From positions 3,253,501 through 3,317,500 of the forward strand of contig CP018227.1 in the NCBI GenBank assembly GCA_016865035.1: 64,000 nucleotides of DNA, given 5' to 3'. Positions 24,505 through 53,577 of the stretch are shown here, piece by piece. The position numbers were made by a program, and so were the translations under genes. Origin of the DNA: Kordiimonadales bacterium IMCC3096. GTDB taxonomy: Bacteria; Pseudomonadota; Alphaproteobacteria; Minwuiales; Minwuiaceae. The stretch's first letter is position 1, and each line of letters starts with the position of its first letter. A model generated the notes under the pieces. The model searched no databases, was not told the DNA's origin, and saw only the letters and a list, made by a program, of their open reading frames with translations.

Positions 24505-25695
24505 TCAGCCGGTGGCACCAAGACAAGTGGTCAGTTGGGTCACCAACCGGTCCATCATGCCGAAATAGTTGTCCGTTGCGGCGGGCGACGTTGTCCCGAC
24601 GGGATCCACCACACCAACGTGTACATGGTTGTCACTGGCCAGCGCCTCGACGATGTCGCTGTTGAACTGGGGCTCCGCCAGTACGCAGTGAATGTTCTGT
24701 TCGGTAATGCGGGACCGGATCAGGCTGATCTGGCGTGCACCGGGAGAGACCTCCGGGTTGATCGCGATGGAACCGGCGGCGGTCACGCCGAACCGGTTCT
24801 CGAAGTACTGATAGGCGTCATGAAAAACGATGAACGGTCTGTCGGTGACAGACGCCACCCGCTCGGCGGTGCTTGACTCCAGCTCGTTCAGGCGCCGGAT
24901 GGTCCGCGTGGCATTTTCCCTGTAGATGCTGGCATTTGTCGGGTCGGCTTCACCCAGAACGTCCGCGACATGGCGAACGATGGCGATCGCGTTCTGCGGG
25001 TCCAGCCAGACATGCTGGTCTGTGTCTCCCTCATGGCCGTCGTGGTCGGCATGCTTCTCGTGGTCATCATGGCCGTCGTGGTCGGCATGCTTCTCGTGGT
25101 CATCATGGCCGTCGTGGTCGGCGTGCTTCTCGTGGTCATCATGGCCGTCGTGGTCGGCGTGCTTCGCGTGGTCATCGTGCCCGTCGTGGTCGGCATGCTT
25201 CGCGTGGTCATCATGGCCGTCGTGGTCGGCGTGCTTCTCGTGATCATCATGGCCGTCGTGGTCGGCATGTTTCTCGTGATCATCGTGCCCGTCGTGATCG
25301 GCATGCTCTCCGTGATCATGGTGATGTGGTTCGAAAGCTTCATTGTCCCTGACGGGCAGCAGGCGCATGCCAGGGGCCTCGATCAGTTCGACGACTCTCG
25401 CCTTCTTCGAGAGATTGGCGAGGGGGCGGTTCAGAAAGGCCTCAAGGGAGGGCCCGACGCGAAAGATCACGTCCGCGCGGGACAGGGCCAGCGCGTCGGA
25501 GGGCCGGAGTGCATACCCATGCGGTGACGCCCCCGGCGGCAGGATCAGGTCCGGCTCCGCCACACCCTCCATGACCGCAGCGACCAGTCCATGGATCGGG
25601 ACGATGGAGGCGCTGACGCGGATACGCGCCTCCGCCATCGCCGATCCGGCAGTGAGTGTCAGGGCCAGAACGGCAGGCAAGAGGGAACGCAGCAT
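24505..25695 (-). CDS. znuA: High-affinity zinc-binding protein ZnuA with expanded His-rich loop
   Basis: A 396-residue periplasmic zinc-binding protein. I start at ATG 25695 (MLRSLLPAVLALTLTAGSAMA), 7 bases after GGAG; the GTG at 25710 is less likely. The signal peptide is followed by SASIVPIHGLVAAVMEG with the first ligand His in PPGASPHGYAL. Then comes a loop of eight HADHDGH units (about residues 125-225), and further ligand sites at QHVWLDPQNAI, VFHDAYQYFENRFG and the C-terminal Asp (HVGVVDPVG). The family is usually ~300 residues, so the loop explains the excess. ZnuB/ZnuC are not adjacent. A candidate Zur site precedes the gene. Confidence 0.95.
   Translation of the reverse strand: MLRSLLPAVLALTLTAGSAMAEARIRVSASIVPIHGLVAAVMEGVAEPDLILPPGASPHGYALRPSDALALSRADVIFRVGPSLEAFLNRPLANLSKKARVVELIEAPGMRLLPVRDNEAFEPHHHDHGEHADHDGHDDHEKHADHDGHDDHEKHADHDGHDDHAKHADHDGHDDHAKHADHDGHDDHEKHADHDGHDDHEKHADHDGHDDHEKHADHDGHEGDTDQHVWLDPQNAIAIVRHVADVLGEADPTNASIYRENATRTIRRLNELESSTAERVASVTDRPFIVFHDAYQYFENRFGVTAAGSIAINPEVSPGARQISLIRSRITEQNIHCVLAEPQFNSDIVEALASDNHVHVGVVDPVGTTSPAATDNYFGMMDRLVTQLTTCLGATG
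25036..25323 (-). repeat. In-frame tandem 36-bp repeat inside znuA (eight units)
   Basis: Eight tandem copies of a 36-bp unit encode HADHDGHDDH(E/A)K. The last copy is cut short and runs into GDTDQH. Copies differ only at a few silent sites and one Glu/Ala codon, which suggests recent expansion by slippage or recombination. It codes for a metal-binding loop and is not a CRISPR array: there are no spacers. Confidence 0.92.
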
Positions 25696-25723
25696 CAGTC
25701 TTCTCCACACTTCGATGTGCGGC

Positions 25724-28006: not shown

Positions 28007-28942
28007 TCAGTCGCGGCCCAGCGCGCCCATCATTTCGCGCCATTCCCGGGCCGAGAGGCCGCTGTCAGCCTGCGTTACCTGCTCCCCCGCCAGCATCCGG
28101 CGCACGATGGCGACCGCGGTACGGGACAGGTGCATACCCCCCAGCCGATACTCCTCGAACGCATCGGTGGTCAGCGGTACCCAGGCCCGCATCATCTCGA
28201 TCATGGCGTCGGCGTAGACGCGAATTTCGTATTGTGCATGCGGATCTGCACGCAGGGACAGAAAATGCATCAGATTGTGCAGGTTCGTCTTCCAGTACCA
28301 CTGGGTGTAGAAGTTGAGCGACAGGTTCATGCGCGCCAGTTCCCGCGCCAGTCCGCTCTTGTTCGCATCAAGCGGCTGACCGTCCGTGCCCTCGTTCAGC
28401 ATCTCGGAATAGTGCTCGTACACCTGCGCGGAATCGTTGCGCAGGATGTCGAGGACCTGGGCGGCTTCCTCCCCCTCCAGCACCGCGCCGCGCCCCTGGT
28501 GGTTCGCGGTCGACTGGGACGCCAGCTGCGCCGGCTCCGGGATGTAGAACTCCCGGTCGAGGATCGAATAGCGGGCGGAATATTCGTTCACGTTGGCGGT
28601 GCGGTGGCGGATCCACTGTCGTGCCACGAAGATCGGCAGCTTGACGTGAAACTTGATCTCGCACATCTCGAACGGCGTCGTGTGGCGGTGCCGCATCAGG
28701 TAGCGGATCAGACCGGCATCCTGGCTAACCTTGCGGGTGCCGCGCCCGTATGAAACACGTGCCGCCTGCACCACGGCATTGTCGTCGCCCATGTAGTCGA
28801 TGACCCGCACGAAGCCATGATCAAGCAGGGGAACGGCGGTATAGAGCTGATCTTCCAGCGCGGTGGAGACGACCCGGCGCGTGGGCTGCGTTTCCGCCCG
28901 CATCCGCTCGATATCGTCGATCTGGTCCTGTGTCAGCGGCAT
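28007..28942 (-). CDS. thyX: FAD-dependent thymidylate synthase ThyX
   Basis: ThyX makes dTMP from dUMP using methylene-tetrahydrofolate and FAD/NADPH. The 311-residue protein starts [15 protein letters not shown] (GGAG 9 bases upstream). The ThyX motif [15 protein letters not shown] is intact (about residue 105-119), and the substrate segment [24 protein letters not shown] is present. It diverges from the tmRNA gene, whose promoter should lie in the ~100 bases after the ThyX start. No thyA is seen in this window. Confidence 0.98.
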
Positions 28943-29039
28943 CTGGGCGTTCTCCGGTGGCGTGGCGCACGATGATAGGGGCAATTGGCGATTCGACGAT
29001 CCCGAATTCCGCCTGCCCCCTCTAGGAAATGCCGTCGAA

Positions 29040-29375
29040 ATGGCCCATATAGGGGCTGTCGGGCAACCGACTATGGCGATAAACGCTATACGAAATAGGC
29101 GTAACGGACCCGGGGGCAGTGCCCGGCGCCTCCACCAACTCCTCCAGCCGGACTTGTGCCGGGGACGATGGGACCCGATGGGGGCGAAACAGGATCGACG
29201 TGCGTAGTAAAGGTGTGGTTTTCGCCCGGCATGGTACCACCGTATCGGACCAACTTTGATAAGTGCCAATGATAATGAAATGGTGCTCGCTGCTTAATAG
29301 CTAAGCAAGCGCGGCCCGGGGGGCGCCGGGCAACAGAAGCCCCCCACCCAATTCCGGTCGCGACTGGCCAGACCC
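29040..29375 (+). ncRNA. ssrA: Split (circularly permuted) transfer-messenger RNA
   Basis: A two-piece alphaproteobacterial tmRNA. The acceptor piece comes first and ends at 29137 with a T-arm (CCGGG, loop GGCAGTG, CCCGG), the acceptor strand CGCCTCC and ACCA. A 42-base intervening segment (29138-29179) is removed. The coding piece starts at 29180 with GGGGGCG, which pairs fully with CGCCTCC (one G-U), then AAACAGGATCGACG (D-loop-like). The tag frame begins at GCC 29265 and reads [10 protein letters not shown] then TAA (29295-29297). A GC-rich H-type pseudoknot follows (about 29314-29346: GCCCGG/CCGGGC with GGGGGC/GCCCCC). The outer ends (about 29040 and 29375) are estimates. tmRNA rescues stalled ribosomes and tags the product for ClpXP. 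The gene sits directly before sspB. Confidence 0.93.
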
Positions 29376-29431
29376 GCGGTGATACCGTGTCAGAGGGGGG
29401 CAGTCGCAGACCCGCGACTTCGGAGGGTACG

Positions 29432-29947
29432 ATGAAATACGCACAGATGGTCGAGGATGCTCTCCGCGGGGTTGTCCGGCGCGCGCTGCATGCCGCGAAC
29501 ACCGAGGGGCTGCACGGCAACCACCATTTCTATGTCACGTTCCTGACCCGCTTTCCGGGCGTGGAACTGCCCGATCATCTGCTGGAGCGGTACGAGCACG
29601 ACATGACCATCGTGCTGCAGCACCAGTACTGGGATCTGAAGGTGGAGGAGACCTTCTTCGAGGTCTCGCTAAGCTTCAACAAGCTGCCGACCCGCATTCA
29701 TGTGCCCTATGCTGCCGTCACCTCCTTTGCCGACCCGAGCGTGCAGTTCGGTCTGCAGTTCGAGCCGCAGATGGACCAGATCGACAGCGAGTCGGTGGTG
29801 CCCGCCGGCAATGCCTTCGCACCGATGAAGGTGCCGGAGGAGTCCGGCGATTCGGAGGTTCCGGAGGCCGAAGAGAGCGGTGAAGGTGCGCCGGAGGAGA
29901 AGGCCGGCGAGGTCGTGTCGCTGGATGCGTTCCGCAAGAAGAGCTAG
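29432..29947 (+). CDS. sspB: SspB-type ClpXP adaptor (alphaproteobacterial SspB)
   Basis: SspB-alpha binds the tmRNA tag and tethers the substrate to ClpXP. The 171-residue protein starts at ATG 29432 behind a perfect GGAGG site. The N-terminal substrate-binding domain (LHAANTEGLHGNHHFYVTFLTRFPGVELPDHLLERYEHDMTIVLQHQYWDL) is typical. An acidic, flexible linker (~120-155) ends in the ClpX-docking peptide VVSLDAFRKKS. It starts ~55 bases after the estimated tmRNA end, so adaptor and tag RNA are neighbours on the same strand. Confidence 0.95.
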   Translation: MKYAQMVEDALRGVVRRALHAANTEGLHGNHHFYVTFLTRFPGVELPDHLLERYEHDMTIVLQHQYWDLKVEETFFEVSLSFNKLPTRIHVPYAAVTSFADPSVQFGLQFEPQMDQIDSESVVPAGNAFAPMKVPEESGDSEVPEAEESGEGAPEEKAGEVVSLDAFRKKS

Positions 29948-31351: not shown

Positions 31352-32599
31352 GTGCCAGATGATCTCGGCGCAGCAGAACAGCGCCGTTTCATCATCGTTG
31401 ATGACGACCGGGTTGCCGCAGGCCATGCGGCGGCGCTGCTGAAGCGTGCCGGTCACGCGGTCGAGGTGTTTCAGTCGAGCCTTGAAGGGCTGGAGGCGAT
31501 CCGGCGGGAGAAGCCGGATGGCGTGGTCACCGACATCATGATGCCGGACATGGACGGGCTGGAACTGACCCAGAAGCTGCGGGAGGATCCGGCGAATGCC
31601 GATACCCGCATCTTCGTCTTCTCCGGCAAGGCCTTCGACTACGACCGCCGCCGCGCGCTGGAGGTTGGTGCCGACGCCTTCATCCAGAAACCGATCAAGA
31701 GCGACGTGTTCCTGGAGACCGTGGAGCGCATCCTGAACGACACCGTGGAGGTGAAGTTCTGGGGCGTGCGCGGCACCCTGCCGAAACCCGGGCCGGACAG
31801 CCTGAAATATGGTGGGCAGACCAACTGCATCACCCTCAATTTTCCCCGCGGCCAGTTCTTCGTCTTCGATGCCGGCAGTGGCATTCGGGAGGTCGGGGAC
31901 AGCCTGATGAAGGCCGGCAAGACCCGGACGGAGGGAAAGATCTTCATCTCCCATCCGCACTGGGACCACATAAACGCGCTGCCCTTCTTCGCGCCGCTCT
32001 ATGTCACCGGCAATGACTACGAAATCCTGGGGCCGTCACATGGCTCCATGGGGATCGGCGATCTCGTCTCGGCGCAGATGGACGGCGCCTACTTCCCCAT
32101 CACCGTCAGGGAGTTCGGTGCCCGTGTCACCTTTCGCGACCTGCGGGAGGGGACCTATGACGTCGCCGGGCTGAAGGTGCGCACGATGCTGCTGTCCCAT
32201 CCCGGCTACTGCCTGGGCTACCGGGTCGAATATGGCGGACGGAGCTTCTGCTACATCACCGACAACGAGCTCTTCCTGCCCGAGTCCGACTATCACTCGC
32301 CGGAATACATGGACCAGCTTGCCGACTTCGTGCGCGGCACCGACCTGCTGGTGACCGACAGCACCTACACCGACGACGAATATGCCTCAAAGGTCGGCTG
32401 GGGCCACAGTTGCCTCAGCCAGGTCGTCGAACTGGCCTGCAGGGCGGAGGTCCGCGAACTCTGTCTCTACCACCACGACCCGTCCCAGGACGATGCCGCC
32501 ATCGACGAGAAACTGCGCCTGGCGACGGAGATGATCGCGGAGAGGGGGGCGGCGGTGAAATGCTCCGCCCCTGCCGAAGGGATGAGTGTGAAGCTTTAG
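31352..32599 (+). CDS. Receiver domain fused to metallo-beta-lactamase-fold hydrolase
   Basis: A 415-residue protein from GTG 31352 (AGGAGGGG ribosome site). Residues ~10-125 are a CheY-like receiver: acidic pair VDDD, phospho-acceptor Asp in VVTDIMMPDMDG, Thr/Ser in FVFSGKAF and Lys in FIQKPIKSD. Residues ~130-415 are a beta-lactamase-fold domain of the cyclic-phosphodiesterase/PhnP-like branch: KFWGVRGTLPKPG, GGQTNCI, metal motif SHPHWDHINALPFF, LLVTDSTYTDDEY and YHHDPSQDD. I infer a phosphorylation-controlled hydrolase, with nucleotide or signal-molecule substrates possible. No partner kinase is adjacent. Confidence 0.9.
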   Translation: MPDDLGAAEQRRFIIVDDDRVAAGHAAALLKRAGHAVEVFQSSLEGLEAIRREKPDGVVTDIMMPDMDGLELTQKLREDPANADTRIFVFSGKAFDYDRRRALEVGADAFIQKPIKSDVFLETVERILNDTVEVKFWGVRGTLPKPGPDSLKYGGQTNCITLNFPRGQFFVFDAGSGIREVGDSLMKAGKTRTEGKIFISHPHWDHINALPFFAPLYVTGNDYEILGPSHGSMGIGDLVSAQMDGAYFPITVREFGARVTFRDLREGTYDVAGLKVRTMLLSHPGYCLGYRVEYGGRSFCYITDNELFLPESDYHSPEYMDQLADFVRGTDLLVTDSTYTDDEYASKVGWGHSCLSQVVELACRAEVRELCLYHHDPSQDDAAIDEKLRLATEMIAERGAAVKCSAPAEGMSVKL

Positions 32600-33240: not shown

Positions 33241-33326
33241 AGAGGTGGCCCGACAAATCTGGACAGTTGAGTTAGGTGGATTTTCTGCTCCCAATCCGGC
33301 AGCGTTGCCGGGACGAAGGAGCGAAG

Positions 33327-33638
33327 ATGACAAGACGACCCAGGCGGAACCACAGCCCTGCCTTCAAAGCGAAAGTCGCATTGGCGGCGCTGAAGGGCGA
33401 CAGGACGATGAGCGAGCTGGCGACGCAGTTCGACCTGCATCCCAATCAGATCAAGCAGTGGAAGGATCAGCTGCTTGAGGGCGTAACGGGTGTCTTCGAT
33501 GACACGCCAAAGGCCGCGAAAGAGCCGCAGATCGACGTAAAGTCCCTGCACGCGAAGATTGGCCAGCTGGCGCTGGAAAACGATTTTTTAGAGGGCGCGC
33601 TCGACAAGGCCGGTCTGTTGCCGAGCGCAAGGAAATGA
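33327..33638 (+). CDS. IS3-family transposase OrfA (DNA-binding subunit)
   Basis: A 103-residue protein with a helix-turn-helix (HSPAFKAKVALAALKGDRTMSELATQFDLHPNQIKQWKDQLLEG) and a leucine-zipper-like tail (SLHAKIGQLALENDFLEGAL). The ribosome site is GGAG. Its stop overlaps the OrfB start (ATGA). OrfB is in the -1 frame, as needed for the OrfAB frameshift fusion of this family, though I do not see a strong A-rich slippery heptamer at the overlap. Confidence 0.93.
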   Translation: MTRRPRRNHSPAFKAKVALAALKGDRTMSELATQFDLHPNQIKQWKDQLLEGVTGVFDDTPKAAKEPQIDVKSLHAKIGQLALENDFLEGALDKAGLLPSARK

Positions 33639-34465
33639 CGGGCCCGGACCACAGGCTGAGCCTGACACGGCAAGCCCGGCTTCTCGGGATCAGCCGGGGC
33701 AGCCTGTATTACGCGCCGCGCCCGACCAGTGCGGCGGACCTCAAGCTTATGCGCAGAATTGACGAGTTGCACATGGACTACCCGTTCGCGGGCAGCCGTA
33801 TGATGAAAGGGTTGCTGCGGCAGGAAGGCTTCACGGCCGGGCGGCTGCACGTGGCAACCTGCATGAAAACGATGGGCATTGAGGCGCTCTATCGCAGACC
33901 GAACACCAGCAAGCCTGCGCCCGGTCACAGGATCTATCCCTACCTGCTGCGCAAGCTGGCCGTGACGCAGCCCAATCAGGTCTGGGCCATGGATATTACC
34001 TACATTCCCATGGCCCGAGGGTTCGTCTATCTGGTCGCCGTTCTGGACTGGTTCAGCCGCAAGGTTCTGGCCTGGCGGCTGTCGGTGACGCTGGAAACAG
34101 CGCCGTGTCTGGAGGCCTTGAATGATGCCCTGCGCAGATATGGCAAGCCGGAGATCATGAACTCGGACCAAGGATCACAGTTCACGTCCATTGACTTCAT
34201 CAAGGCGCTGAAGGACGCCGACATCCAGATCAGCATGGATGGCAAGGGCGCTTGGCGCGATAACGTGTTTGTCGAACGGCTCTGGCGCAGCGTCAAATAC
34301 GAGGAGGTCTATCTGCACGCCTATGAAAGCGTGTCAGCCGCCCGACAGGGCATCGACCGATACCTGGCCTTCTACAACACAAGGAGACCGCATTCATCGC
34401 TGGAAGGGCAAACGCCCGATCAGGCATATCACATCAAGTTGCAACCAATCCCGGTGGCGGCATAA
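33635..34465 (+). CDS. IS3-family transposase OrfB (catalytic subunit)
   Basis: A 276-residue rve/DDE integrase-like protein. The N-terminal HTH_21-like segment (RLSLTRQARLLGISRGSLYY, DELHMDYPFAGSRMMKGLLRQEG) is followed by the catalytic triad: Asp in WAMDITYIPM, Asp in IMNSDQGSQFTS, Glu in DNVFVERLWRSVKYEEVY. It ends with YNTRRPHSSLEGQTPDQAY. All catalytic residues are intact, so the element may still be active. Confidence 0.95.
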   Translation: MTGPDHRLSLTRQARLLGISRGSLYYAPRPTSAADLKLMRRIDELHMDYPFAGSRMMKGLLRQEGFTAGRLHVATCMKTMGIEALYRRPNTSKPAPGHRIYPYLLRKLAVTQPNQVWAMDITYIPMARGFVYLVAVLDWFSRKVLAWRLSVTLETAPCLEALNDALRRYGKPEIMNSDQGSQFTSIDFIKALKDADIQISMDGKGAWRDNVFVERLWRSVKYEEVYLHAYESVSAARQGIDRYLAFYNTRRPHSSLEGQTPDQAYHIKLQPIPVAA

Positions 34466-53417: not shown

Positions 53418-53480
53418 CTTGCGTCCTCACGGCTTCGCATAATGCCAGCGGAGGCGGTGACATCCCGAACGGGACGCAAG
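53418..53480 (-). promoter_or_regulatory. Possible ribosome-site-sequestering helix between riboswitch and metY start
   Basis: CTTGCGTCC (plus 53472-53480, read on minus) lies just after the SAM-II element, and its perfect complement GGACGCAAG (plus 53418-53426) contains part of the GAGG ribosome site 10 bases before the metY ATG. A long helix closing over the leader would hide the start. A small hairpin CCCG-TT-CGGG lies inside. This is inference from complementarity only. Confidence 0.45.
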
Positions 53481-53483
53481 TAC

Positions 53484-53538
53484 ACCTCTTTAGCGGAATT
53501 TGTTTAACGCGCCCGCAAGCTGGCTCAAATCGGCGCGG
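53484..53538 (-). promoter_or_regulatory. SAM-II riboswitch upstream of metY
   Basis: On the minus strand the leader reads CGCGCC-GATTTGAGCCAG-CTTGCGG-GCGCG-TTAAACAAATTC-CGCTAAAGAGG. The P1 stem is CGCGCC/GGCGCG, the loop is GATTTGA, and the pseudoknot pairing of CGG with CCGCTAAAG matches the SAM-II (metA motif) consensus found before methionine genes in alphaproteobacteria. It is 70 bases upstream of the metY start. Confidence 0.9.
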
Positions 53539-53577
53539 TCGGGAAACTAGGGAAGATCAGTCAGAGCTGTCAAGCAT

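Follow-up and report, generated by a model that had tools for sequence, protein, structure and literature searches.

A two-piece tmRNA gene followed by the SspB adaptor gene: the usual arrangement in Alphaproteobacteria and a probable transcription unit

In the genome of Kordiimonadales bacterium IMCC3096, the tmRNA gene ssrA is directly followed, on the same strand, by sspB, the gene of a degradation adaptor. Is this arrangement peculiar to this genome, do the two genes form one transcription unit, and do the tag encoded by the first and the adaptor encoded by the second depend on each other? Elsewhere, smpB is a frequent neighbour of ssrA. Linkage to smpB was ruled out here, as this gene lies about 0.97 Mb from ssrA. 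The window, by which we mean the whole stretch of DNA analysed, comprises 64,000 nt of contig CP018227.1, and all coordinates refer to it. Besides the pair, the window contains a SAM_alpha riboswitch (53469-53546, - strand, 47.4 bits), a gene for a ZnuA-like protein (24505-25710) that binds zinc and carries numerous His/Asp-rich repeats of HADHDGHDDHEK type, a gene encoding a 415 aa protein in which a response-regulator receiver domain is fused to a metallo-beta-lactamase fold (31352-32599), and two adjoining frames that by eye resemble an IS3-type transposase pair (33276-34465).

An earlier note, made from the letters of the sequence alone, had proposed a permuted ssrA with an acceptor piece ending at 29137, a 42-base segment to be removed and a coding piece starting at 29180, and had suggested a search with the Rfam alpha_tmRNA model. 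These landmarks turned out to be exact, and the gene was recognized by two methods, Rfam and ARAGORN. The alpha_tmRNA model RF01849 matched 29019-29348 (+ strand) with 244.5 bits (E 9e-70), well over its gathering cut-off of 50 bits; the general permuted-tmRNA model RF04321 matched 29075-29297 with 142.6 bits; and ARAGORN called a permuted tmRNA at 29045-29388, with a tag of 10 residues and two stop codons. On the basis of the RF01849 match, the locus contains a circularly permuted alphaproteobacterial tmRNA gene at about 29057-29348 (+ strand).

The acceptor piece (29057..29137, +) comprises the T arm, the 3' half of the acceptor stem, the discriminator A and CCA, as aligned to RF01849 and RF04321, and ends in CGCCTCC-A-CCA. 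Its 5' end was estimated from the position of the -10 element and from the 82 nt of the Sinorhizobium meliloti acceptor piece given in PMC2245857, and an estimated start near 29057 makes the piece about 81 nt long. It is followed by a spacer of 42 nt (29138..29179, +), which is predicted to be removed and which varies in length and sequence within the genus and family while its flanks are conserved. The coding piece (29180..29348, +) opens with GGGGGCG, the 5' half of the acceptor stem, and contains the tag reading frame (29265..29300, +; tag 29265-29294, followed by TAA TAG, as called by ARAGORN) and a 3' pseudoknot. We took the end of the covariance model, 29348, as its 3' end; sequence conservation in the genus and family alignment falls beyond approximately this position. 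The pseudoknot, which was drawn by eye, is of the H-type (29314..29343, +; 29314-29319 paired with 29326-29331, and 29320-29324 with 29339-29343), and in two aligned loci (L169 and L170) both partners of a pair in stem 2 are changed, A-U standing in place of G-C, so that the pairing is kept. The ends of both pieces can pair to form a 7-bp acceptor stem that includes a G3:U70 wobble, an alanine identity element. The permuted order with an acceptor stem formed between the pieces, evident from the sequence, ARAGORN and Rfam, and the tag frame with a hydrophobic-Ala-Ala end called by ARAGORN are both features by which a gene belongs to RF01849. The region 29057-29348 would give rise to a two-piece RNA, processed in the cell.

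The gene downstream of ssrA, sspB (29432..29947, +), encodes a protein of 171 aa that matches PF04386 with 150.7 bits (cut-off 27). Its PDB matches at E <=0.001 are solely 2nys (AGR_C_3712p), 2qas ("Hypothetical protein") and 2qaz ("SspB Protein"), and residues 1-114, the core of the protein, align with 2qas at E 2e-35. We take 2qas and 2qaz to be SspB-alpha of Caulobacter crescentus, a protein reportedly treated in papers by Lessner (2007) and Chien (2007). Alignment of 31 alphaproteobacterial SspB sequences, which likewise identifies the protein as an SspB-alpha adaptor, revealed a C-terminal peptide, VVSLDAFRKK (about 29912-29941), that is conserved behind a variable linker and in which L164, F167 and R168 are invariant (31/31 sequences). 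This peptide is presumably the ClpX-docking peptide. The ATG start codon at 29432, located behind a GGAGGG, was picked by eye and by its conservation in close relatives. The identity of sspB, its adjacency to ssrA and the shared orientation, all claimed in the earlier note, were thus confirmed, the identity by PF04386 and the PDB matches. The distance of about 55 bases given there did not hold: sspB starts 83 nt after the end of the covariance model (gap 29349..29431, +, with the Shine-Dalgarno sequence GGAGGG directly 5' of the ATG) and 43 nt after the ARAGORN end.

We then asked how far this pairing is conserved. The earlier note had named differing neighbours in all relatives as an observation that would speak against it; what we found is that ssrA and sspB are adjacent in all nine genomes of the genus (seven, own included) and the family (two). 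Both mature tmRNA pieces are strongly conserved in these genomes. Variable regions are the spacer and the gap between ssrA and sspB, the latter except around the start codon in close relatives. A survey of 289 evenly drawn alphaproteobacterial genomes yielded tmRNA matches over the cut-off in 263, SspB in 253 and both in 246. We counted the genes as adjacent when sspB follows ssrA on the same strand and the SspB match is no more than 400 nt away from the model end. By this measure, ssrA lies directly before sspB in 173/246 genomes, so that the pair is adjacent, co-oriented and conserved, and at least one adjacent case occurs in 100/139 families. The two genes are on the same strand at 0.4-10 kb in a further 29/246 genomes, on the same contig but farther apart or in opposite orientation in 12/246 (1 opposite within 10 kb, 11 farther), and on different contigs in 32/246, a result that fragmented assemblies can also give. 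The strand and order are alike in 202 of the 203 genomes having both genes within 10 kb. The ssrA-sspB pairing is therefore the usual arrangement across Alphaproteobacteria and is not peculiar to this genome. Linkage is nevertheless not essential, since the genes are distant or opposite in the 12 genomes mentioned and never linked in three families (f9, f13 and f43), and since several of the spaced cases (17 of the 29 were inspected for reading frames, with insertion of a mobile element in mind) have opposite-strand frames between the two genes.

A second set gave a similar picture. It consists of 80 SspB loci in named GTDB genomes, the best matches to an alphaproteobacterial SspB alignment, and shares at least 5 of them with the class set. 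A tmRNA lies upstream on the same strand in 64/80 loci, 59 of these within 400 nt, and on the opposite strand in none; linked examples include Rhizobium, Bradyrhizobium, Methylobacterium, Devosia, Azospirillum, Phenylobacterium and Brevundimonas. The other 16 show no tmRNA nearby; 4 of these, which were left out of the Rfam scan, are on contigs that stop within 460 nt of sspB on its upstream side. In one genome where tmRNA was not found before sspB, that of Aquamicrobium aerolatum, an Atu_C8 small RNA is present on the opposite strand (L197:5683-5805).

The remaining annotated neighbours in the 80 named loci, whose names come from one representative per cluster of frames of at least 120 codons, are thyA (39), folA (34), fumC (34), hflK (26), a second Band-7 gene, presumably hflC (23), and thyX (12). 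With 64/80, ssrA outnumbers every other annotated neighbour of sspB (at most 39/80). In part this is a link specific to the two genes, and in part it belongs to a large block of conserved genes. In our window the divergent slot upstream of ssrA, outside the unit, is occupied by thyX (28010..28942, -; TIGR02170 214.2 bits, PF02511 199.5 bits). As thyA is found in 39/80 and thyX in 12/80 loci, and as thyA gave no match in this genome, the thymidylate synthase gene at the site flanking ssrA looks like a non-orthologous replacement by thyX.

In SspB loci from other classes of the phylum, ARAGORN detected no tmRNA over about 5 kb around the gene (0/40; for one-piece tmRNA the search had no positive control), and Rfam found none in 14 of these. 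The 40 loci were hand-picked from the 139 non-alpha matches listed; contig ends cut short 3 of the stretches searched. As to the literature, a 2007 paper on the small RNAs of S. meliloti (PMC2245857) states that both genes flanking the tmRNA gene are conserved in Alphaproteobacteria and judges a functional association with them uncertain since smpB is unlinked; a table row in PMC2573895 places S. meliloti ssrA between the divergent SMc01449 and the co-oriented SMc01450. Among the papers listed by our search, which took in few subscription papers, no statement of class-wide ssrA-sspB linkage in Alphaproteobacteria was found.

If SspB maintains the part of the tag that it presumably binds, tags should differ between genomes with and without SspB. 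ARAGORN called tags in 89 of the 96 comparison loci, which are the same-strand cases within 10 kb of a first list made from the best 150 matches per search (80/107 adjacent), the window being kept separate. For the analysis of tags we used a set of 150 loci, window included, that have an SspB protein and an ARAGORN tag starting with AN or AK; loci without such a tag, and L263, which has a misplaced tag call, are outside it. Removal of seven repeated pairs with the same SspB core and tag, five of them identical contigs, left 143 distinct cases. In this set, which was preselected for AN/AK starts, 139/143 distinct tags start with ANDN. By contrast, only 5/17 genomes with a tmRNA but without detectable SspB have an ANDN start. 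The other 12 start with AKSD, AKRD, ANDD, ANES (twice), ANNK, ANQN, ANDK (twice), GNNN, ANSN and AKNN. All 17 tags end in Ala-Ala, five of them having been read by a pattern that requires a final Ala. A profile of the 31 alphaproteobacterial SspB sequences, run against the 17 Pfam-negative genomes for a hidden divergent SspB, gave a single fragment (E 0.03, in G151).

Genomes without SspB could have lost ANDN through the general decay of reduced genomes rather than through release from SspB. Among SspB carriers with small genomes, ANDN is present in 13 of the 19 with a tag (20 fetched), which shows that such carriers at times lose it too. The difference between 5/17 and 13/19 gives a Fisher P of 0.044. 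When the comparison is restricted to genomes of at most 2.0 Mb, ANDN is found in 4/16 without and 17/25 with SspB (Fisher P 0.011; the genomes are not independent), which argues against decay, as does the Ala-Ala end of all tags without SspB. Counting small genomes at the level of families, 4/12 without and 16/24 with SspB gives P 0.08, as decay would allow. Tags called by ARAGORN alone point in the same direction with fewer tags (3/12 without, 6/11 with SspB), and ANDN is kept in 3 of the 10 SspB-less genomes whose completeness is 90% or more. One of the genomes in this completeness class, G188, shares its tag with G068, an SspB-carrying member of the same family, which is as expected if the loss of sspB was recent. 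Small size, not chance, governed the choice of the 20 small SspB carriers, and 6 more were added by eye. Tags that ARAGORN did not call (5/17 without and 8/20 with SspB) were read by a pattern favouring an AN-like start and an Ala end; this gave no tag for G006, which was left out of the Fisher comparisons. The context of the resume codon supports the tag readings where its anchor is present; re-reading by this context met no anchor in 7/17 and 7/20 genomes, and an anchor without candidate in one more of each. Altogether, general decay appears a somewhat unlikely explanation. Genomes without detectable SspB usually lack ANDN, and this association supports a dependency of the tag on the adaptor. 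The data, from a sample that is small, related and partly incomplete, fit the view that SspB holds ANDN in place and ClpX holds the end of the tag.

Long tags offer a further view on this dependency. In ordinary tags, 6-11 residues follow ANDN. Eleven tags are 20-31 residues long (10 with SspB, 1 without), and 10 of these contain a second N-x-N, where shuffling expects 3.5; in each of the 10, one N-x-N copy is located 5-10 residues before the end. The motif was chosen post hoc, and the tags of G005, G006, G092 and G129 come from resume-context readings. Long, partly Arg-rich tags with a second N-x-N were seen in small-genome Alphaproteobacteria at L346, L349, L353, L357-L363, L066, L070 and L146. 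The position of the second N-x-N near the end suggests that a certain spacing between the adaptor site and the protease site is required. Our wider proposal, that ssrA and sspB are an ancient transcription unit in which SspB maintains ANDN, with ANDN decaying where sspB is missing while the end read by ClpX stays, and with the N-x-N spacing fixed in long tags, is a tentative one, to which we give slightly less than an even chance.

Are the two genes also transcribed together? A sequence with the spacing of a promoter precedes ssrA: the 97 class loci, window included, share a conserved CTT at the -35 and CCTATATT at the -10. In the window, the promoter predicted from this conservation and the matrix score spans 29022..29051 (+), with the -35 at about 29022-29027 (CTAGGA) and the -10 at about 29046-29051 (CATATA), a region also covered by the RF01849 model span. 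It scores 11.2 with a matrix whose training set includes the window locus; a generic sigma-70 scan found no promoter at 29022-29051. Scores of at least 8 were obtained before ssrA in 77/80 loci, a figure that is partly circular because these ssrA loci also served to train the matrix, before sspB in 4/80, after sspB in 6/79 and in shuffled sequences in 2/80. There is thus no enrichment of ssrA-type promoters before sspB (4/80), though a promoter of a different type would escape this matrix. The conservation scan singles out only the Shine-Dalgarno signal and the start codon before the sspB start. The gap between the model end and the start codon measures 17-272 nt (median 89) and is below 50 nt in 14/80 loci; the shortest gaps leave no room for an sspB promoter, unless it lies inside ssrA. 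Terminators scored in 8/80 gaps, in 7/80 sequences after sspB, in 8/80 before ssrA and in 2/80 shuffles, and none was found in the gap 29349-29431 of the window, the test being an insensitive one. The structure of the gap is unremarkable (fold z -1.03 for 29349-29450). A short hairpin noticed by eye before the Shine-Dalgarno sequence was rejected, as it is absent from L180.

With a conserved promoter before ssrA, nothing similar before sspB and very short gaps, read-through into sspB is the best reading, and read-through from ssrA most likely supplies the sspB mRNA. The co-regulation of tag and adaptor that the earlier note had considered possible is thereby supported indirectly, by class-wide linkage with conserved orientation, gaps down to 17 nt and a promoter only before ssrA. 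It could instead be that ssrA ends at a separate terminator, non-canonical or Rho-dependent, and that sspB has a promoter to itself, the gene order being inherited synteny without regulatory meaning. The gap without a conserved element would be in line with this, as would the families that have the genes apart and the uncertainty about a functional association of alphaproteobacterial small RNAs with their neighbours expressed in PMC2245857. The wider block is, moreover, conserved with the unrelated genes thyA, folA, hflK and fumC, so that the conserved order may outlast a functional need. Against separate transcription stand the excess of ssrA over all other annotated neighbours of sspB, the almost invariable strand and order of genes within 10 kb of each other, and the short gaps lacking an enrichment of ssrA-type promoters; we consider it unlikely.

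We thus regard it as probable, from the evidence of sequence and comparison, that the two-piece tmRNA gene and the SspB-alpha gene are one transcription unit with read-through. The steps outlined below are partly drawn from general background. A single promoter at about 29022-29051 would drive a transcript starting near 29057. Nucleases that process tRNA would excise the 42-nt spacer, and the acceptor RNA and coding RNA thus separated would pair again via the 7-bp acceptor stem. Charged with alanine and assisted by SmpB, encoded elsewhere, the molecule would rescue stalled ribosomes and add 11 residues. SspB would bind the tag at its ANDN half and, with its C-terminal VVSLDAFRKK, dock on ClpX, which would take the LAA end. 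Low-level read-through beyond the coding piece would produce the sspB mRNA, so that tag and adaptor would come from one unit.

The earlier note had also pointed to a short 10-codon tag with Met-Val before LAA, and had suggested that adaptor and tag may have co-adapted. Within the genus, the 10-residue tag of the window is present in 3 genomes (own included) and ANDNEMALAA in 4, and the LAA end is kept in 9/9 genus and family genomes. A length of 10 is ordinary: it is found in 31/143 distinct alphaproteobacterial tags (35/150 with duplicates), and it is the commonest tag length among the 97,179 sequences of a database (PMC11915505). Co-adaptation of this SspB with the length of the tag, or with the Met-Val residues, is improbable: 10-residue tags are widespread; the nearest SspB neighbour shares the tag class in 122/143 cases (shuffled mean 94), but such a following of SspB relatedness is expected from shared descent; and, in 59 cluster representatives, no SspB column exceeded the family-wise 95% null for association with short versus long tags in either run, the best column staying below it in the first (MI 0.255; null 0.281) and narrowly below it after deduplication (MI 0.271; null 0.277, reached by 6.8% of shuffles), near enough to the line that tag length and SspB may covary weakly.

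The locus itself is ordinary and illustrates two known families well; the points of interest are the class-wide linkage of ssrA and sspB and the way ANDN has eroded in lineages that lack sspB. In most of the Alphaproteobacteria, the neighbour of ssrA is the gene of a degradation adaptor instead of smpB. If both genes are on one transcript, the capacity for tagging would be tied to the capacity for delivery, and maturation of the permuted tmRNA would also have to free an mRNA. Lineages without sspB provide a natural test of which residues of the tag serve the adaptor and which serve the protease.

Comparison with known systems places the locus as follows. Like other two-piece tmRNAs of Alphaproteobacteria (RF01849/RF04321), this one has its acceptor piece placed before the spacer and the coding piece, an acceptor stem of 7 bp that includes a G:U pair, an encoded CCA and a tag starting with ANDN; it differs in its own 10-residue tag, and no structural departure was seen. 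Its adaptor shares the core with SspB-alpha of Caulobacter crescentus, and differs from it in the length and sequence of the linker. Gamma- and betaproteobacteria have an sspA-sspB arrangement, in which the adaptor is of the same family; a tmRNA gene was found beside sspB in none of the 40 non-alpha loci. The smpB-ssrA gene clusters described in PMC4131195 also place the tmRNA gene next to the gene of a partner protein, but the partner encoded in the locus studied here is a degradation adaptor.
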